Below are positions 15,004 to 58,524 of a DNA stretch of 64,000 nucleotides, piece after piece; positions within the stretch are counted from its first letter, which is position 1, and each line of letters begins with the position of its first letter. The position numbers were made by a program, and so were the translations under genes. The DNA lies in assembly GCA_018398765.1 (NCBI GenBank), contig JAHBMJ010005879.1, positions 27,501 through 91,500 of the forward strand, in the 5' to 3' direction. Origin of the DNA: Chromera velia (taxonomy: Eukaryota > Sar > Chromeraceae). The notes beneath the pieces are model-generated. The model did not search any database. It had not been told where the DNA came from and saw only the letters and a program-made list of their open reading frames with translations.

Positions 15004-15999
15004 CTAGGGGGTAGCACTACGTTACTGTATAAGGGTGACCCTAACTTTATACATTCTCTAACAAAAAATCTAGACATGGCGGGTACTTGGTTTATATACC
15101 AATCTTTTTTTCCACATTCTAAAGTGTTGATTTAAGCTAACAGAACTGATGGCGGGTTATATCTTCACTTCAAAAATTGGTTCAAAGTCATGTCGCTACG
15201 ATTTGGCGGGGTGGCAGGCAGTTTGACCTGGCGGGGCCCTAGAGTCTATCAATGCTTAGACCCCCCCGCCAACGAAAGAAATACCCGCCAAAGGAAAGTC
15301 TACCGCGCTCTTATGTCCCCATCCGCCCCCCACCAGCCCCTCACCACTACCCGCTAGCCTCCCGCTACCACCTGCCGCCTGGATCTGCCGCCTCAAGCAG
15401 TTGGTTCACACAGTTCTCTCTACTGAAACCCATTGGTTGATATTGGTTGGTATAGAATGGCCTGCCTGCCTGCCTGTCTGCCTGTCTATGACTGACTAAC
15501 TGTCTGCTCGTTCTCTCTTCTCGTTTGCCTGCCTGCCTGTTTGCCTGCCTGTCTACAATTGACTGACTGTCTGTTCGTTCTCTCTTCTCGTTTGTCTGCC
15601 TGCTTGTCTTTCTGTCTGTCTGTTTATCTCTCTGCCTCTCTGTCTATACAACAAACATAGAGACCTTGCAGGGTATGCGTGAGGTGTTCACGTTTCTTGG
15701 CGGGGATTGACTGTGTCTGGCGGGACGTGGCGGGGCAGGCGTACTGGCGGGAGGGGAAGGTTTGTCAAAGTCCATCCCCGCCATGAAAAGCCCCGCCAGA
15801 TCGTAGCAACACCACCTTTAAACAACAATTTCTCATGAACTAGAAAGCATGAATGGCCCGCCAGAATAGAAATCGAATCTCTAACATGTTCTATATCTAT
15901 AACTTTTATGTAGCATAAGTCTAAACTATTATCTTAACTAGTTAGGAAGCCCGCCAAACTAGGGGTACCTATAATGTTCATCCTAGTTCTACCCCCTAG
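15004..15999. mobile_element. Non-autonomous TIR DNA transposon (Mutator-like by target-site length) inserted in copia fossil A
   Basis: The left end reads CTAGGGGGTAG and the right end is its exact reverse complement, CTACCCCCTAG, giving a perfect 11-bp terminal inverted repeat; weaker inverted similarity continues inward for about 45 bp. The insert is flanked by perfect 9-bp target duplications, CACACGACC, at 14995-15003 and 16000-16008. Nine-base duplications are characteristic of the Mutator/MULE superfamily. GGCGGG motifs recur inside in both orientations, including an inverted pair CTACGATTTGGCGGGG (15198) and CCCCGCCAGATCGTAG near 15791. There is no transposase ORF, so it would need a helper. 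Intact ends suggest a young insertion relative to its host. Confidence 0.85.
15459..15642. repeat. (TGCC/TGTC)n tetranucleotide repeats inside the TIR element
   Basis: Degenerate runs of CTGC and CTGT units make up the centre of the 996-bp insert, interleaved with two near-copies of a GACTGTCTG..TCTCTTCTCGTTTG segment. Confidence 0.75.
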
Positions 16000-17799
16000 C
16001 ACACGACCCACCTCCAGGGGGTTATTCTGGAGGAGACTGGGGCGGGGGAACAGATAATGATGGAGGCGGAGATGGTGGGGGGGACGTTCCTCCCGGATTT
16101 TCCCAAGCTCTACATCATGGCCTCTCCGTTGGGGAGAGGGCCCGCCTCCATCTATCTGCTCGCAGACGACTGCGGAGATCGTCTGGGAGAAGGATCGTCT
16201 CCGGGGATGACGGAGACGATGAAAGAGGGGCAGAGTCTTCTGCCAAGAGGGGTAGAGGTGACAAGTCGGAACCGGAGGATAGGCCGATTGACCCTTCTAC
16301 GCACCCGGGGGGCGCAGATAGGTCCCGCTCTAACCAAGGAACTCCCATGCGAGAGAGGAGAGTTTTGAGTCCAGCTGTGCTGGAATTCTTCTCGTACGAT
16401 CGTCAGCCGATGGAGGCCCACCCCGTAAAGGGGGCAGTTGTCTAGAGGGACAATCGTAGAAAGCTTGTGGCCCTCCACTCAAAGGCGCATAAGAGCTATG
16501 GATGGGCAGACCTCACACCTGATCTTTCGGTAAGGGAGACCCTCGCTTTTAAGGTCAAGGAAATCAGGGACGGGAGAGTGAGGAGGACGTCTATCAAGCA
16601 TGTGTTCGACATTCGGGGAGGGAGAGTCCCCGAAGAGGCTATGCGCATGATTGATGACCCCGTCCAGCTCCGCGAAGTTGGAGTTTGGAAACTGCCGGAG
16701 GAAGAAAAGGTAGGGGGTGTAAAGGGCTCTGCAGACGCGGTGTCTGCAGATCCCTCCACATCGTCGTCTTCCTCTGCTGTGCCTTCCTCTTCTGCTATCC
16801 CTGCTGTGCCTCTTATCAAGGAGGAGTCATGTATTGTCCCCGAGGCTGCTGAGTCTCAACCTGTTGTTCCTTCGAACGCAGGCGGAGAGGAGCGAGCGGA
16901 GGATCATGGGGGTCCTCCTGCTGCCGAAGGGGTATCTAATGATGGGAATGAGGTTGGGGGAGTTGAGCTACTGGGCCCTATTGCGGAGAATGTGGAGACG
17001 GATGAGGAGCCTCCGTCTCTGGTAGCGTCTACGGACGGGGATGGGTATACATCCAATGCCAGCTTGTCAACGTTTGAGGCAAGCGACCTGGGCTTCGGGA
17101 GCGACAGCAGCTCCTCGGATAATGAGTGGGGAGTCTTGGGGGGTCGGAAACTTCCCAGGGCAGGAGAAGGACCCACCGTGAGGCAGAACCCGCCCAAGGA
17201 GGAGGTTGAGGAGATGAACAAGGTGGATGAGGTTTTGAAGGGCCTGCAGTGGGAGCGGTTCAACACCCTCTGTGCGATGGAGGTATTGAAGGAGAAGCAA
17301 GCTAGGAGAGTGCCCGAGGTGACGGGGAGGAACTGGAATGATAATTTCCGGGAGGAAAGGGGCATTCCGTCATTCACTGGGGCGATGGCATGGGAGAGAG
17401 AAGAGGGCAATCCCAGACGGGCTGGGATGCCCAGGAGCCCCACCAGGAATAGGTGGTACGGTCTTCCTCACCTGTCTTGCCTTTCCTCCAGGAACCCTCG
17501 ATCAGGGTTCCTGTTCATGGGAACTGCCGTGTACGAGGAGGAGATGAGCCGTTTCAAGAAGGGCTCTACCCAGCTCCCCACCACAAAGGAGGAGGTCAAC
17601 TTGGGGTCGCACAAGCTCGCTGCCCTAAAAGAGTGGCTGGTGAATATTGTGGGAAATCGGACGCTCGGTAGGAGGGTTAAAAGGAACGAGATTCGGGCGG
17701 TTGTCAGCATAGGCTGGCGGTGCACTTAGAAAGAGACGGACGATGGAGGCCGGAAGCCTAAAGCAAGGTTTTTCGCAAAGGGTTTCCTGGACGGCCGAC

Positions 17800-19156
17800 T
17801 CGTTGACACCTATGTCGGAACGCCTTCCGTCGCGGGGATCAACACCGTCTGCCTTTTCATTGTGTTCACAGGAATGGAGATGGGAGCGGCGGACGTGACC
17901 GCTGCCTTCTTGACCTCCAAGGATTACAATGCCGAACGGGTCGGCGCGATACTGCCCTTTATATTGCCTCGAGTTCCTGAGAAGAACTCCTTCAAGGACA
18001 TCCCTGACGACAGGTACGAGGAGCTGAGGAGGATGGCGGCTGAGTACGAGCCTGCGGGCACGTACTTGGTAGAGATGGGCCTCTACGGACTGCCCTGTAC
18101 GGCCCAGCTTTTCGACCATAAGTTGGAAGGGGTGTGCAAGGAGTTGGGGTTCAAGCGTGTGGACATGGCCATCGCGGTCAAGGCTCCCCCTGAGGGAGGG
18201 AGAGCCCAAGCTATCGTCATGAATTGGATAGACGATTTGCTGACTGGAGCCCCTCCGAAGGAGCACAAGGTCCTTCAGGAGACCCTCGACAAGAGGTTGG
18301 GCTTTGGGTCCGTATGTGTGTGGACATCTCCAGAGTCTCCACGGAGGAGATTCACCTCTCCCAGGTCTCGTACCTCGAGAACATAGACACCGCTCCTCTA
18401 TGGGAGATTTTGAAGGAGAAGTGTCTGAGCAAACTCTGGAAGGGTTTGGATGGCAAGAGTGCTGAGCCCTCCACCGAGGAGGAGGTTGATAACCAACATG
18501 AGAAGCCGATCCGTGCTGGAGTCGGGACTCTGCAGTGGGGGATGAGGATAAATCCGCTCCGTACGGTGTGGGGCCACATGGTAGCGCAGTCGATTTCGAA
18601 GCCCTCCAGGTGCGTATTCAAGACGGTCGTACGCATCATCGAGATGCTGAAGGGGCACTCTGATAAGCGGGTTTTCATGAGCGTGGGGCTCGTGCCCGTC
18701 GTGCATGCGTACTTCGACGCAGCGTTCAAGTTCGCGACTTATGCTGCACGGTTGGGTTATGTTGTCAGGATCCTGCACTCGATCGAGCTGCGAGGGGACC
18801 TGCGGTCCCTCCTGGAGAACTGGATCGCGTGGACCACCAAAAGGGCGGGAAGGAAGGTCGGGTCTTCCACCGCCGGGGAGGTGCTTGCCTTTGAGTTTCT
18901 TCTCAAGAAGCTTTTCGGCATCGTTGCCCTCGTTAAGGCAATGTGCGGCCTCAAGAAGGTCCGTGTGATCGTCTACACGGACTCCAGCCCCCTCCACGAC
19001 CAGTTCCGGTCTGGCAAGGCCCAGACCGATGCGACCATGCAGGGCGTTTTAGAGTGGTGCATTGAATTTCAACAGATGCGTGTCCTTGGGGCAGATCTCC
19101 AGTGGATTGCACGATCGAGGAACATATGCGCCCTCCCCGGTGGGGAGATGGCATGA
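17800..19156 (+). pseudogene. Reverse transcriptase and RNase H region of copia fossil A
   Basis: Copia-type RT landmarks occur in order: an ADVTAAFL box, MGLYGLPCTAQ (counterpart of YGLKQAPR) and NWIDDLLTG (the Asp-Asp box). RNase H follows with a SSTAGEVLAFEF box and VIVYTDSSPLHD. A DLQWIARSRN stretch, which usually precedes the end of copia pol, closes it. These motifs fix the family and strand. Confidence 0.85.
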
Positions 19157-22100: not shown

Positions 22101-22700
22101 TCCTATTAGGTCGCCAGTTGCGGTGACTGGCAGGCAATGGTCGAGCGTCAGAAAAAGAGGACAAGGAAAATTGGGGAGCCGGGTGATTAAAGACAGGTCT
22201 TTTCTCATGCTTCCCGATTCCCCCTCGTCAGAGAGGGGTGTGTTGTGCTGCGTGCTCCATAGTCTTTCCTTGGGGGCTCGGGAGGGGGTGTGTGAAAGAA
22301 AACGACGGTCCTATTCCTGGTCGGATTCGCGGAGGGTGAATTCCGGTCCCAGCCTTTCCATTCGTCCCTTCACCCCGAGCCAGAGAAAGGAGCGATGCGC
22401 ACGCGGCGGCCCGTCCACACGGGGTGGCGGGGCGCCTGCGACAGAGGTGTACATATTGTGAGTTCCATGGTATGGCCTGCATACACTTTGGTGTAAGAAA
22501 TACCCTCGAGGCACTCACCGTGGTGGTGTGTGCTCCAGGCTTTCATATGGGATTTGATTAGGCCGATGGTGCAGTTATGCCATCGGAGGCTTCAGAATTA
22601 ATTCTGGTCCCGAATTAATTTCCAGATAGTCAGACAGATGCGCACGGCGGTTACCGTCTGTCTGAATGAGAGACGTGACCTAGGGATTGATAAAGCTTCA
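19160..22700. other. Non-coding tail right of copia fossil A
   Basis: About 3.5 kb of T/G-rich sequence with no sustained open frame. It begins directly after the RNase H end, at a purine-rich stretch (GGAAGGGAAGGG at about 19178) that could be a polypurine tract, so the start of a long 3' LTR is possible. No matching left copy exists in the window to confirm this. Many GTTTG and TGTCTG runs occur; no gene was recognised. Confidence 0.4.
22561..22587. other. Small perfect hairpin
   Basis: CCGATGG and CCATCGG pair across a 10-base loop. An isolated stem of this size may be chance; no terminator or RNA role can be inferred. Confidence 0.35.
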
Positions 22701-28368: not shown

Positions 28369-28501
28369 TGAATGAAATCTTGTTTGCCCTGTTTTCCGAC
28401 TCCACATGCTGCCCTGCTTGCGGCCCTTTGTTTGTCTTGTGTGTGTCACCTTTAAGTCCAATCAATCAATATACGGAACCGCCCTCTGCATACATCTGCA
28501 G

Positions 28502-29787
28502 GCAACCGTTTGCACTGCCCCTCCATGGAGGTTCTCGGCTCTCTCCTGTCGTCTTGCTCTCTTCCGTCTCTTCTGAGCCTTGACTTGAGTGACAACCCTC
28601 TCGGCCCTTCAGGGGTGAAGGCTCTTGTAAAGGGCTTGTCTTCATCAGCAGATCCCCCCCCCCTGCAGACCCTCAAACTAGCCCGTACGAAGGCCAAGGC
28701 AGAGGGGATGGAAGCATTAGTAGTCACGCTGAAAGCAAAGAAGACGACCTCTCTGCAGACTCTTGACCTTGCAAAGAACGAGATGAGGCCGGCGGGAGTG
28801 AAGCACTTGGCCTCTGCAGTGAATGCAGAGGCTGTGCCTCACTTACAAGTCCTGTCACTCAGTCAGAATGAGCTGATCATGGAGTCTTCGTACGAGAGCA
28901 ACTACGCGCTCATGGCTGATCTCCTGTCCATAAATGCGTTGAAAGAGTTGGAAGAATTCGATTTAAGTGAGAATTATTTGTTTGACCAAAGGCTGGGAGA
29001 TGGGGGGGAAGATTCCGGTGTGGAGTTATCTGCGGCTGCATTTGTGGTCACAGGTCGCTTTCCTAGATTGCGATGGTTGGATATCGGTGGTGATCCCCCT
29101 ATAGTGATAGACCCTACGCAGTTGAAGGCTTTTGCAGCTGCCCTAGCGTTGGGAGGGTTGCCGTCTCTTCAAGAGTTGGCCCTCCTTTTTGGTGCTACTG
29201 GAGGCTCTGCTGAGAATCCAAAGGATGCAGAGGGGGTCGTTGCTCTTGCCAATGCCCTCACTTCTGGGCATCTGTCTAATTTGAAAGCCTTTAAGGTGTC
29301 CCTCCCACCGGGCAGGACACGTGAAGCTTTTGTGCTGTTTAGTCACAGTCTGACCACAGGCAAAGCATCCCTCCTAAAGACTCTAGATCTTGACGTATGG
29401 GGAGAAAGCAGTAGCCTGAGAGACGGAGTAGAGGCACTTGCTGAGAATATTCGAGGGGGGGGGCTGTGTTCCCTTGAAAGCCTGCGGCTGTGGCTACTTC
29501 AAATAGAAGGGGTTGCGTTGTCGTCTCTAGGAATGTCCTTCGGTAGTGGGGGGTGTCCGTCTCTTCAGAAACTTGATCTCAGTTGGAAGGAGGCAGGGGA
29601 TGAGGGGGTTGGGGGTCTGGTGGAAGGGTTGGGGGGGGGAAGGCTTTCATTCCTTCGAGATCTATCGCTAAAAGTGCACTGTTTAGATGGGAGTGAGGGG
29701 GGGTGGATGGGGGAGGGATGTATAGCATTGGGGGAAGTTCTGAGCACCAACAAAGTGCCTTCCCTCCGTGTTGTCACTCTCAAATAG
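28502..29787 (+). CDS. Large terminal LRR exon, first open block
   Basis: The exon begins after CTGCAG at 28501 in phase 1, completing a Gly codon from the previous exon (LDLS then GN). It encodes about 12 LRRs with landmarks LLSLDLSDNPLGPSGVKAL, LQTLDLAKNEMRPAGVKHLA, LQVLSLSQNEL and LQKLDLSWKEAGDEGV. The repeat period of about 28-30 residues with a G(V/M)xxLxxAL helix matches the ribonuclease-inhibitor type of LRR. There is no signal peptide or membrane segment in the visible part, so a cytosolic or nuclear protein is most likely. Confidence 0.75.
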
Positions 29788-30885
29788 CACTGCAATCGCA
29801 ACTTTCCTTTTTTCTGTCACGGTCTGTCTCGAGGGAGCGTTGACCCTTCCATGCTTATGGACGTTGAATTGGAGAGTGATACCCATGCTCCAGAGCAAAT
29901 GAATCTGGGAGTGATCAGATTCGCTGAGGTCATTTGAGTAGGCAAGGTGTCGGGGTTACGAAAGATCAGCTTGGCAGGAAACCCGAATTTTATGATGAGG
30001 CAACATTGGGCAGAAGTGATCGGAGAAGCGTTGACGCATGCAGAGGCCTCTCTAAATTCTCTGGAGGAAGTCCTCCTTTTGCATAAGACAGAAAAAGCCA
30101 TTTCAGCTTTCCTTGCCGGCATAAATAGAGGGGCAGGAAGTCTGAAGGTTCTTCGTTCTTTTTTATGCGGAACTTACTGTAGCATCAGAATACAAGGCGC
30201 TCAATCTCTGCATGCTTTTGTGAGGGGGGGCAAGGTCCCTTCCCTCAAGGAGCTAACAGTGAACTTGGCGGGGATTGGGCAGGAGGGGATGCAAGCTTTT
30301 GCTGCTGCCCTCAGCACTTCCCATGCCTCCGCACTGCGACGATTGGAAGTAAAGTTTGGTGGTGTCGGTCCTGCAGATGCAGCTGCAGAGGTGGAGTTGT
30401 TCTCAGTTGCGCTGAGCTCTGGGTACCTCCGCAGGTTGGGAGAACTTTCTGTGGGGGGTCTTGGTATGATTGGGGAGGTCCAAGTGCTATGTATGGGGCT
30501 GGGCAGCGGTGAGTTGACGTCTCTTCGCAAAATCCAACTGACGGGTGTTGGTTTTAGGAAGGAGGGGGGCAGGGACCTTTCTGAGGTTTTGATTGTAGAG
30601 AAGCTGCCGTCATTGAGAAGTCTGGATGCGAAGTGGGCAGGGTTGACCGGGGAAGGGTTAAGGGCACTGGCGGGGGGGTGGATGACGCGTACCCCCCCTC
30701 CGTTAAAACACTTGAACTTGAAGTGTACCAAGCTGACTGGAGGGGTCGCTGACGCTCTTTCAACTCTTCTGTAGTCAAAGAGGATGCCGGCACTGGAGAC
30801 GCTGTGTCTTTACGGCAATATTCCTTCAAACAATCGATTGAGATGCCTGCTCTCGAATACATTCCCAGAAATCGTACATTTTTAG
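29788..30885 (+). pseudogene. LRR continuation after the first in-frame stop
   Basis: The frame is unchanged from the preceding block. NLGVIRFAEVI precedes the TGA at 29935, and GLRKISLAGNPNFM follows it at the LRR-expected spacing. More repeats run to 30774 (LKELTVNLAGIGQEGMQAFA, LRSLDAKWAGLTGEGLRAL, LKHLNLKCTKLTGGV). After the TAG at 30772 comes ALETLCLYGN, again LRR-like, ending at the TAG 30883-30885. Continuity across three stops points to single-base stops in one long exon. Confidence 0.7.
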
Positions 30886-50219: not shown

Positions 50220-51500
50220 AATCTGGGCTCACTCTTGCACTGTCCACTCGCCAACTGATTGGTAAGAGGCTGAGAGTCAGTCACAACGAGAACTTTCGGA
50301 AGTTCCCTCCACAACTTTTTCATAAGATAAAAGACTCTAAATGAACATTTCATCCCTTCTCTCATTGCCAGCAACTCAGCAGAAGTAGTGGATCCAAGCT
50401 TGCGACCACACTTCTTACTGGACCAGACCACTGTATTGTCTTCACTCATCTGCTCTAACTCAACAACTTCCTCTTCTGCCAAAATCTGCATCTCCTAACC
50501 CAGACAGCCTTCCTTTAGATGCATCTGATAAGACGCATCCACCCAGATCACCAAAACAGGGACCCCCCCCACTTTCTTTAGTCTCAGAGGCTTTGCTTTC
50601 TCTTTCGCATGCCACAGAGCTTTTTTTGTTGCCAGAACAGAAGCAGGGGAAGGACGGGTGTTGCAGCGGGAAAGATGAGAGAACAGAAAAGAAAGATTGG
50701 GCTGCGTTTGCACAGCCTAACCCAACGCACCTATGTTTTTCTGCTGCTCCTTCTGTAGGGACAGATCAACTTCTTTGTTAGAGGGAATCAGGAGATCTTT
50801 GTGAGTGATGGGCTTATGAGCAGCCTCAGATAATAACTCTGCCATATTGAGAATGTAAACACTCTGATCTAAAAGCATCTCACCCGGCCGCATGCGCACA
50901 GACATTCCAACGTACGTGTGCAATTCACTATTGTCCATTCTCTTTAGTTCATCCATCGTGAAAATCTCCCGCATTGCAGACACATCCGAATCAATATTTA
51001 GGGAAAAAATAAACAGATCATCAACGTGCATGACACAAAGACCAATCGGCTCTCTCTTCCTGTTTCTCTTGACAAGAATCGACTCAGCTACTTCTGTCCA
51101 TCTAAGCTGACGAACCTTTCTCTTGAAGTAATCAGTGTACTTCTTCGGAACGTCTTTCAATCCATAGACTGCTTTTACAATCTTGACAAACATACCACAC
51201 CACAGGCTGGGATAAACGTCAACCGGCAGGTCATGTGGCAAACGAAGCCACACACCATCTTCTATCAGTGCCTGCAGGAAGGCAGTCGATACATTAACCT
51301 TCGCTACCTCCCACCCCTGACTGAGGGCCCAAACAAAGACCACTCTTGCAAAACCGGCATCTGCCGCGGCATCTGCCGTCCCTGAGTATGTCTCGAAAAT
51401 CTCTGCGTCTCGGGGGTCTTGAAACCCCCTGGCAACGAGTCTTGACTTGGTAATTCTCTTCCCCCCCTTCATCTTCCATGTCTGAACCCACCGGAGAGTG
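50220..51500 (-). pseudogene. Reverse transcriptase and RNase H region of copia copy B
   Basis: RT landmarks in order on the minus strand: LRWVQTWKMKGGK, SRLVARGFQDPRDAEIFETY, VAKVNVSTAFLQA, VYGLKDVPKKYTDYFKRKV, CVMHVDDLFIF (Asp-Asp box) and ELHTYVGMSVRM. RNase H lies nearer 50.2-50.7 kb, with VIWVDASYQ, STTSAELLAMREGM and VLVVTDSQPLTNQL. These are standard copia pol motifs. Confidence 0.9.
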
Positions 51501-52569
51501 ATTCCCTTCACCCCCGGTTGAGGACTCAAGGTTTGAGAAGACAAGTCAAAAACAGAAGAAGCGCACCACCGGGTCAGCTCCTTCCTATCTGCCTCTTTGA
51601 AAAGACTTTCCTCTATCTCCTCTTTGGTTGCAAGAATATGCTCTTTTGTTTCGTTCTCACGCTGCAGGAGCTTTCGTGCTTTCTCTGCCTTCAAGACGGC
51701 ACAGGCCATTTCAAAGCACGCATCAAGCGACTTGCTCATACGCTCTTCTATCATCTGTCTCCTCCGCCTTCGTCTCTCTCTCACAACTTGCCTCCGTTGC
51801 TTCTTGGTCATCTGTGACCATCGGACAAACTCAGCTGCATTGGCTTCCTCTGCTACCTGCTCCATCACCCTATCTCCCCCAAACAACTCATCAAGCACAT
51901 CCTCAAGGGGTGCATCATCAAGGGAACTGTCGGGCTGTGCGGGTGGCTGAGGGTTGTTTTCGGGCGGACAATCATCTTCTGTCAATCTGTGCAGAATCTC
52001 ATCGGGGAGACTCCTGTTCTCAGGAAGATCAAACCTCTCCATAATGTCTTTCTGCGCAACTCTCTCAAAGGCAGCCGGACAGAAATCTAATCGGGAAATG
52101 CTCGCCCCTTTCATCTGATGTTCTCCTTCCCGAATCAACTGTGTAGGAAAGAGAGCGCCATTGGAGTCTCTGACAAGGAGACCCTTCAGCACTGCGGAGT
52201 GAACGCCTCTGGGCGGACTTTGCAAAGGAGGGAGATCAACGTCCTCCTCTGGCTTCACCCTGTCAGACCGCGCGTCATCTGGACCGAGAACACCATCGGT
52301 TCTATCATCTAACAAATCCCATCCTACAAAAAGGTCATTTCCTAAACTCGGACTCTCTTCCTCCCCCCTTCTGTCAATCCCCCTCCTATCTACATCAAAG
52401 TCTCTTGTCCCCACCCCCAACCACTCCTCAACAGCAACGTGGAAAGGGTGAACACGCAGGGCTTTCCATCGACCTACTCTGCAAAGAAGAACTGAAACCG
52501 ACCTCGGCCCAATCATCCCCTCGAAAAGAGCACGCTCACTCTTTTTGAAAAGAGCCGAGGGAGAACGAA

Positions 52570-53460
52570 ATGAAGGGTCTATAATGCAAACAACATCACC
52601 GACAGAAACAGAGGGAATGCCAGACGGCCGACCATAAATACAAGCATTTGGGACCGACCAATCGAAGAATACACCACTTCATTCAATGCATTCACAACTC
52701 CTAGCAAAATAGCTGGCCATATATAGAAAGGAATGCGTGCCTGCAACAGAACCTCATTCATCAACGAAAGAAACGGCAGGTTCACTCTCTCAACAAACGC
52801 CTGAACTTCCGGGGTCCCCGGAGGTCCGAAATCATTCCCGACCCCCAGTTCTAAACAGACACGAAGATATTCCTCGTCTCCAGAAAACTCCCCCCCATTG
52901 TCGCTTTGAACAATCAACGGCTTCCCAAACCCTGCAACCTCCCAACGCCGGGTCTAGGAAAGCAGATGCCTCTGAGTATGGTCCTTTTTGCGAAGAGCCA
53001 TGAGAGACACACGTCGAAAAGCCTGATCAACAAAGACAGACACATAGTGAAAACCCCCAAAGGCCTTCCTCTTCATGTCTTTCAAATCATGGAAGATGAT
53101 GCGATTAAATTTAATCTTTCACTTCTTTTTCCCTCCTTGCTCTCTCGAGCCTGCCGACTTCTCCGAAGAGTTATCGAACTCTCTCTCACTGGCACCCCCC
53201 ACTGTGGACGACGCCTTTCCTTCCTTCTTTTCCTTTCTCTTCTCTTGCTTCTTCGCCTTCCACCCTCTTCTCTTCAATCTACAGCGTCTAAAGTTCACCT
53301 CCTGACACGCCCTGCACTCCCCTCTCATAACTGTATACTTTTGAAGCGAAAAAGAAAGACTGACTCCTTTCTCTTTGAGAGTTATAAAAAGTCTCTCTCC
53401 TGTCGCATACGCGAGACGGGAATGCAAAACGCACAGAAGATGCTTTCTTTTCTCAGGCGT
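52570..53460 (-). pseudogene. Integrase region of copia copy B
   Basis: The catalytic core shows IVQSDNGGEFSGDEEYLRV and FGPPGTPEVQAFVERVN, the Asp and Glu boxes of copia integrases. Upstream, at about 53.25-53.45 kb, HSRLAYATGERLF and CRACQEVNFRRC give the His/Cys zinc-binding part. A region of charged, low-complexity sequence separates this from RT. Confidence 0.85.
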
Positions 53461-56294: not shown

Positions 56295-56450
56295 AGGAAG
56301 ATTATCAAAAGATATAGTTATACCCTAGCATTAAACAGTGTATACCCTGCAAAGACCTAGGAATTTATAGAAATTTAGAGTCAATTTTAGAAAGGGGATT
56401 TAGAGGAATTTAGACAGGAATCTAAGGGAATTTAGAGCTTTAAATTCCTA

Positions 56451-58284
56451 CACGTGTGAACCCGCGGCTGAAAACAAGTTTGTGGGTAGGACCCTGGATT
56501 TTTATGGGCTGCCGCCGGGCTGAAACCCGTTTTGAACCCGCTTGAACCGGGTTTGAACCCCCGCTTGAACCGGGTTCGAACCCGAATGCCGACTTTTTTG
56601 TAGGCCTTCAAAAGGCTTAAGAAGTCAAAACAAAGCGTTTCCCATCGATTCCTACAGGGTCCGACCGATGGCAGACACACAATGCCTGTCAGTCACGCAT
56701 TCAGTCTGACCACATCCTTCCAACTCACCAGTATGTGCAGATACCAGAGGGGTCCTGCTCCTTTAAGGTGTTTGGAATCCGCATTCAGCGAGCGCAACAG
56801 ATGCACATCACTGTACTGACCTTGACTATAGCAGATGACGCAGAGGGAAGAGCCTCTGGATGGACCTGCAATGGGGGCTCTTTGCTCGCCATCCGCACAG
56901 ACACTGAGAGGCTCCCACAAGAATGTAACATACTCTTCATCCCCACCAAAAATCCTAACAAGCATCAATACTGTCTGCAGCTGGCTGCATCGTAAAGAAA
57001 CAAGAAAGATGCATTGTTTAGCATGGCGGGAGAGAGAGCAAGGAGCCTACTGGGTGCCACAAAGGTTTTGCTGGAGGGGCAGACAGGTGTTGCTCATACC
57101 GTCTCAAGATGAGGTCACACTCAACCCATCAAAAGGGTCTCCGCGCACAGCCACACCAAAAGGTGAATCCTGAACACACCACAAAGTCTAACGGTGTTGT
57201 AGAAAGAGAACTGTACCAGTTTTCTGGAAGGATCTGCTTCACAGCCACTCCTGTACATCGAGAACGGTTCAGACTGGGTATGACTGAATGTATCTCGTTG
57301 AGCTCATTTTGAGCTTTCGGAGCCGATGATTTTTCTCAGTGACGCACACATCGGGCCGGGGGCCGCTGTACGCGCACGCGTCCCCGGCCCGATGCGTGTG
57401 TCAGTGAGAAAAATTGGCTTTCAAAATCGGCTCTGAGAAAGTTTAAAAACTGCTCATGCAACTAGATTCAGTCACACCCAGTCTGAGTTGTTCTCGATGT
57501 ATAGGAGTGGCTGGGAAGCTAGCTGGGAAGCAGATCCTTCCAGCAAACTGGTACAGTTGTGTTTCTACAATACACTTAGACTCTATTCTGTGTCCGGGTT
57601 TCACCTTTTGCGGTGGTTGTGTGATGAGACCCTTTCGAAGGGTCCAGCGAGAGGGTATCTAGAGACGGTGTGAGCAACACCTGTCTGCCCCCTTTGTGAC
57701 ACCGAGTAGGCTTCTTGCTCTCTCCCTAGCCGTGCTGGGCGACGTGTTTTCCTTGTTGCTCTGCATTGCAGCCGGCTGCAGCCAACTTTGATGCTTATGG
57801 GATTTGTTTGTGGGGTGGAAGAGTGTGTTGCCTTCCTGTGGGACAGTTCGTGCTGGCGGAGAGCAAACAGCCCCCAAGTCTACCCAGAAGCTGTCCTGAC
57901 TGGGTCACTCGCTACAGTTAAGGTCAGTATAGTGATGTGCATCTGTTGTGCTCATGGGATGCAGGAGTCTAGCACCTCACAGGAGGAAGACCCCTCCGGT
58001 GGCTGCAGATACAGGTAAGTGGGAAGGATATTATGTGGTGTGCGGTGAGTGACTGACAGGTACTATGTGTCCGGCATTGGTCAAACTCTGTTGAAACTGT
58101 TTGTCTGGACTGTTTGAAGCTTGTGGATGTGTGTTTGGTCGCTTAGAATTCACAAGTGCTTTTTTTGACAACCCGGCGAGAGCCCGGCGAAAAACGGGAT
58201 TCTGGCCGGGCTCTAACCCGTTTTTGGCCGTAAAAATCCGGGGTCCTACCCGCGAACTTGTTTGCAGCTGCAGGTTCACACGTG
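56451..58284. mobile_element. Near full-length inverted repeat (foldback element), 1.83 kb
   Basis: The left arm (56451 to about 57361) and the right arm (about 57382 to 58284) are reverse complements along nearly their whole length, with moderate divergence and small gaps. The outer ends are CACGTGTGAAC and GTTCACACGTG. At the centre CGCACACATCGGGCCGGGG pairs with CCCCGGCCCGATGCGTGTG around a 20-base loop. A TA dinucleotide flanks both ends (56449-56450 and 58285-58286), as in Tc1/mariner-type insertion, though two bases are weak evidence. Clear matching blocks: 56813 with 57900 (around ACTGACCTT), 57070 with 57680 (CAGACAGGTGTTGCTCA), and 57200-57290 with 57450-57560. There is no convincing ORF. 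If transcribed it would form a hairpin of about 900 bp. Confidence 0.85.
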
Positions 58285-58524
58285 TAATCTTTGGAGGTCA
58301 ATTTCTCATGAACTGTGAAGAGGTAGAACTAGATAGAACTTGATATTAATAAACGGTGCTTATAGTTTTAATATATGTCTATAATCACCATTAATATCAA
58401 GATATGTCAAGACAAGCAGGACAAGATGAGAGTGTGCACAGCAATGAGGGAAAGAAGATGGCAGATCGCAGAAGAAAAAGAAGTAAAAGAGATGTTAAAG
58501 AAAGCAGGGAACCCCAGAAAGGCG

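Follow-up and report, generated by a model that had tools for sequence, protein, structure and literature searches.

How does a stretch of DNA arise that is an inverted repeat from one end to the other, and what becomes of its two arms? The question is raised by positions 56451-58284 of the window analysed here (the whole stretch of 64,000 nucleotides from Chromera velia, C3950:27501-91500), which form an end-to-end inverted repeat between two TA dinucleotides. The initial annotation described arms matching along nearly their full length around a GC-rich central stem and a 20-base loop, and this description is confirmed. Successive ungapped blocks of an inverted-repeat search (I1-I7) run from 56449/58286 to the centre, i.e., arm similarity is not confined to the ends. 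In an arm-to-arm alignment the arms are identical at 667 of 855 aligned columns (78%, with 114 gap columns), and a minus-strand gapped self-BLAST aligns 1500 columns at 73% identity and, separately, the terminal 56 bp (TA included) at 89%. The longest perfect arm-to-arm runs are 21 and 18 bases. Identity is lowest 75-225 bp in from the outer end (0.60 and 0.61 in 75-bp bins), and it is there, on the left side only, that GGGTTTGAACCC-like repeated units are found. The sides of the central stem (57329-57361 and 57382-57414) match at 91% and are 20 nt apart. The arms are long relative to the element, as in foldback transposons. The features are as follows (groups A to C are described below).

56342..56450, no strand: left part of an abundant palindromic repeat (joined-flank search, query 42-150)
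56449..56450, no strand: left target-site duplication, TA (single TA in 8/8 fetched empty paralogues)
56451..56504, plus strand: left terminal inverted repeat, beginning CACGTGTGAACCCG (89% over 56 bp against the right end, TA included)
56505..56648, plus strand: left subterminal stretch of repeated GGGTTTGAACCC-like units (direct reading; bins 0.60-0.61)
56649..57328, plus strand: left core arm (in the arm tree with group A arms, 86/88, and with right group B arms through a weak deepest fork)
57329..57414, no strand: central GC-rich hairpin (33-bp stem, 91%; loop 57362-57381; related centres in other copies)
57415..58107, minus strand: right core arm (in the arm tree with the C387 right arm, C1918, C74, C3812, and C3478, 98/96)
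58108..58230, minus strand: right subterminal stretch (gapped self-BLAST)
58231..58284, minus strand: right terminal inverted repeat (self-BLAST; five genome matches including itself)
58285..58286, no strand: right target-site duplication, TA (duplication scoring and empty paralogues)
58285..58401, no strand: right part of the abundant palindromic repeat (joined-flank search, query 149-265)
15004..15999, plus strand: core-less group B copy, 996 bp, ending in CTAGGGGGTAGCACTA and flanked by a perfect 9-bp duplication (CACACGACC)

An assembly fold-back is a very unlikely origin and is rejected, since another contig, C387, carries the element again at full length, with arms that are 76% identical to each other. 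The two copies have the same base at 1697 of 1783 aligned columns (90.6% counting gaps). This second copy, together with the arm tree and clade tests presented below, supports the earlier claim that the arms belong to an old, diverged structure.

The flanks of the element, joined with one TA, were compared with the genome (177.8 Mb in 4040 contigs) in search of empty sites. The best 40 of 203 candidates were scored, in 83 rows: two top rows are the locus itself, and the other 38 all span the junction, the remaining 43 non-self rows being extra segments of those contigs, of which some end before the junction. In all eight empty paralogues fetched out of the 38 spanning rows, one TA lies exactly at the junction. 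Many copies of the host repeat match in both orientations. As the flanks are uninterrupted in the paralogues, the element at 56451-58284 jumped into a copy of the abundant palindromic repeat. A second empty site is given for the relative on C3646: C3607 matches its flanks, when these are joined through one CA, over 300 columns for 300 bases (91%). Among the six copies with both ends recognised, the duplications are TA in the window, GT in C387, TA in C3923, CA in C3646, and GA in C666. The exception is C3491, which has CC/GG instead of a duplication and counts, as one copy in six, against the explanation that we favour. The one-ended copies (C409, C3868, C51, C3607, C74, C1322, C641, C1918, C3734, and C220) cannot be scored for duplication. 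In conclusion, the element inserted as a unit, duplicating 2 bp of its target. The earlier suggestion of a foldback family with TA targets, to be recognised by further copies and by empty sites with a single TA, is borne out as far as the family is concerned: copies occur in at least 32 contigs and the single TA in the eight paralogues. The TA target holds for the window copy and not family-wide, and the GT, CA, and GA duplications of its relatives lead us to reject Tc1/mariner or any other TA-only family.

Arm queries match at least 32 contigs, the window's own included, and 20 stretches were fetched from 19 of them. Group C comprises the window copy, C387, and three copies with one end recognised (C220, C1918, and C3734); its ends resemble CACGTGTGAACCCG. 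Group A (C409, C3491, C3923, C3646, C666, and C3868) has ends like CACATCTGGTCCCG and a single arm per copy read; the greater length of C3923 is due to another repeat within it. C3812 has an end of a third type, CACATATGATCCCG. This is a low-copy family with several subfamilies and related CAC...GTG ends, whose body consists of two inverted arms of an approximately 0.7-kb core around a GC-rich hairpin, and some of whose copies are one-armed or have lost the middle. For example, C1798 joins positions that are separated in C2516 by its centre plus the greater part of its right arm. C3734, with 8 kb between its arms, was considered as an autonomous copy and discarded: its middle contains a Copia-type frame (RVT_2, 2.3e-9, above the cut-off) and is therefore taken as a later insertion. 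Elsewhere in the window, positions 22497-22555 (minus strand) match the left flank of C3812 up to its insertion point at 93%, and are probably a one-sided empty site.

The termini are CA...TG in all six two-ended copies (GTG at the end in five of them, ATG in C387), in keeping with the CA(C)...(G)TG termini of the CMC group. The 2-bp duplication, found in five of these six copies and at the two empty sites, falls within the 2 to 5 bp of that group. Because of these CAC...GTG ends and 2-bp duplications, the element appears to belong to the EnSpm/CACTA-type (CMC) group, at which both features point. With EnSpm/CACTA and the wider CMC(T) elements it shares the CAC...GTG ends, the varied 2-bp duplications, and repeated units near one end. 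It differs from them in having no detected transposase and a body that is nearly all inverted repeat. The ends of EnSpm/CACTA elements are CACTA, whereas those found here are CACGT or CACAT. We put at about 0.8 the probability that this is a cut-and-paste DNA transposon, non-autonomous and built as a foldback element, a figure that includes a CMC transposase acting in trans as well as the arm history and the core uptake discussed below. An EnSpm/CACTA-type (CMC) DDE transposase produced elsewhere would bind the CAC ends and move the element in trans, and the arms would travel as passengers instead of being retained for their pairing.

No DDE transposase with the C(2)C and H(3-4)H motifs of the CMC group was seen. 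PF02992, PF18758, and PF18759 have no match in the genome, which says little because 14 control genomes are likewise silent. Searches with the ends for an autonomous partner gave 5, 15, and 4 places, and a pattern search 10 against 5 for the reversed control; no transposase was found among the frames tested near the ends, within short fetched flanks. Three pattern matches (C3918, C1011, and C3632) lack a core match and, over about 2.8 kb on one side, a partner end; as the reversed control pattern itself gave 5, they are set aside as probably due to chance. In two of these loci, open frames without a Pfam match lie near CAC-type end motifs: one of 520 codons in C3918 (L057:1441-3000) and one of 375 codons in C3632 (L059:2-1126). 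Endonuclease frames lie 2-3 kb downstream of group A ends in C1322 (L053:2072-3349) and C51 (L051:1047-1814), and are perhaps from LINEs; Exo_endo_phos scores 5.9e-9 in C1322, where a chromodomain frame (1.4e-7) directly precedes the endonuclease frame, and 1.2e-4, below the cut-off, in C51.

The core also occurs in a transposon whose target-site duplications have another length. Group B (C2516, C1798, C1536, and others), a CTAG-ended family, has ends that are CTAGGGGGTAGCACTA or near it and 9-bp duplications: TTTCAATTC in C2516, and eight of nine bases matching in C1536 and in C1798. Its right end occurs at 40 or more places (the best 40 of 49 candidates were scored), and adjoins a core match in 9 of the 40 scored and no core match in the other 31. 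When the core-less copy at 15004-15999 is compared with C2516, the two aligned parts meet beside a CTGC microsatellite, at the point where C2516 holds the core. The core of C2516 has no CAC ends, and its two arms differ in outward extent by about 130 bp. Hence, an unrelated transposon with 9-bp duplications holds the foldback core without its CAC ends. This arrangement supports passive uptake of the core by group B, which we consider the probable course of events, rather than the reverse or transposition of the core itself. Gene transfer between superfamilies without end signatures is described for the TET/JBP genes of fungi in excerpts of PMC12730594. One may go further and regard the core as a transferable non-coding module that serves more than one type of transposon, keeps its two arms as distinct lineages conserved separately, and was gained by a transposon of another superfamily that then multiplied with it; each arm would then perhaps bind a factor or act as one end. 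We consider this extension unlikely.

The favoured reading, that of a passenger inverted repeat in a non-autonomous transposon, also has to account for the history of the arms. A tree was made of 26 arms from the window and the fetched loci, omitting the partial arms in C3812 and C3734 and the pieces on C669, C3637, C1334, C3416, C981, C3761, C3511, C3683, C2045, C3334, C776, and C1322. In group C, the left arms cluster with group A (86/88); the right arms join C74, C3812, and C3478 (98/96). In group B, the right arms are on the side of group A and the left C arms, and the left arms on the side of the right C arms, the deepest fork being weak (52/90). In constraint tests on clade sets chosen after the tree was seen, forcing six group C arms into one clade costs 90 log units and is rejected (p-AU 2e-36), the joining of the group B arms is only marginally rejected (p 0.04), that of the two arms of C976 is not rejected (p 0.32), and a clade of A, left C, and right B arms has p 0.37. 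Within elements, arm identity is 71-84% (five elements with both arms aligned). By this comparison of sequences, the left and right arms of group C form separate lineages that probably predate the subfamilies, and the arms are thus not kept alike, unlike those of Galileo. The simplest reading, and a likely one, is that a single inverted duplication came first and the subfamilies afterwards, the arms diverging ever since with no homogenisation. Against this part of the explanation stand the weak deepest fork, the p-values of 0.04 for group B and 0.32 for C976, and the right arm of C3734, which is placed weakly on the other side.

Long arms may alternatively be the transposase-binding ends themselves and stay alike for this reason, as in a strict foldback element similar to Galileo or Tm1 (P or Mutator superfamily). 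Galileo, a foldback-like element of the P superfamily in Drosophila, also has two long arms, one-arm derivatives, several subfamilies, and chimeric copies, and according to excerpts of PMC3573991 its two-TIR copies measure 1.7-2.2 kb and solo-TIR copies exist, much like the overall build found here. The GGGTTTGAACCC-like units near the left end would also fit. However, the same excerpts give 7-bp duplications and arms 98-100% alike within a Galileo copy, neither of which is found in this family. Tm1, a Mutator/foldback element of root-knot nematodes, resembles the family in its foldback-like arms, its non-autonomous copies, and its loci with and without the element, but has 9-bp duplications, arms averaging 93% alike, and tandem motifs in the arms (excerpts of PMC3169594). 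The 2-bp duplications, already unfavourable by their length, and the placement of the two arms of one group C element in different lineages make a strict foldback element quite improbable. As for MITEs, the window element resembles them in its inverted repeats, its lack of visible coding capacity, and its presumed movement in trans, but it is 1.8 kb long and its family has tens of copies, whereas MITEs are short and abundant (excerpts of PMC3573991). The earlier statement that no family with this structure has been named stands insofar as no described family with such a combination was found in the titles and abstract openings of the open-access literature; foldback elements with long terminal inverted repeats are, as a kind, familiar. 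The element is ordinary in kind and unusual in its arm history. The inverted duplication seems to have lasted longer than the subfamilies, its arms drifting apart, in contrast to Galileo, where the arms of one copy stay near-identical. The element can thereby serve to test whether transposons need long inverted arms, merely carry them, or trade them among one another.

The arms could also have been kept by selection for pairing, in a hairpin RNA gene (a source of siRNA or miRNA) spread by the transposon. The predicted single-strand RNA fold is very stable: its energy is -1138.5 kcal/mol, whereas 20 dinucleotide shuffles average -626.7 (sd 11.0), and 653 of its 737 pairs join arm to arm. Such a fold is possible, as the long double-stranded RNA suggested in the initial annotation as a feed for small-RNA silencing would require. 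The core is also more alike among 14 chosen arms than its surroundings (mean pairwise identity in 30-bp bins of 0.68-0.89, against mostly 0.43-0.66 in the 200 bp outside). Comparison of the window copy with C387 speaks against such selection: 57 Watson-Crick pairs are changed on one side (29 to G-U, 28 broken) and 1 on both sides, and 10 positions are improved. Pairing thus decays almost without compensation, with no sign of selection for it between these two copies, few as they are. Sixty-one of the 86 differences of the window copy are C-to-T or G-to-A (46 of the 61 at CpA or CpG), a direction that supposes C387 to be closer to the ancestral sequence, in line with its short branches in the tree. 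The window copy may be decaying by C-to-T change, along with which its pairing declines. Such a bias is reminiscent of methylated-cytosine decay or of RIP. Rfam models for long miRNA hairpins do match, and no match in the window copy or in seven loci reaches a gathering score. In the window copy these are MIR8007 (57239-57518, 55.3 bits, E 5.2e-9, cut-off 195), mir-1180 (26.3 bits, cut-off 49), and mir-434 (21, cut-off 100), and in the seven loci MIR531 (in C387, 33.1 bits, cut-off 70) and gCoV-3UTR (19.7, cut-off 175.8). As all five are below their cut-offs, no RNA-family identity is accepted. Any long hairpin may attract such matches, and we take that of MIR8007 as a general likeness of this sort, yet it is the sole result leaning towards an RNA. 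Selection for a hairpin RNA is very unlikely.

The core itself looks non-coding: its differences are spread evenly over codon positions (0.227/0.220/0.244), many indels are out of frame, and three core frames have no Pfam match at E<=1, on which grounds a protein-coding core is rejected. Stop-free frames of 211 and 219 codons in two arms could suggest an inverted pair of captured gene fragments, with former exon sequence as the core, but the same three observations, and the lack of a host gene among the arm-query matches listed (the weaker ones were not fetched), leave very little room for this origin.

Other features of the window are a Copia-type reverse transcriptase frame at 50717-52678 (minus strand; RVT_2, 1.1e-16), another at 17730-18386 (plus strand; RVT_2, 0.0049, below the cut-off), and frames of a leucine-rich-repeat protein at 28456-30774 (plus strand; LRR_6).
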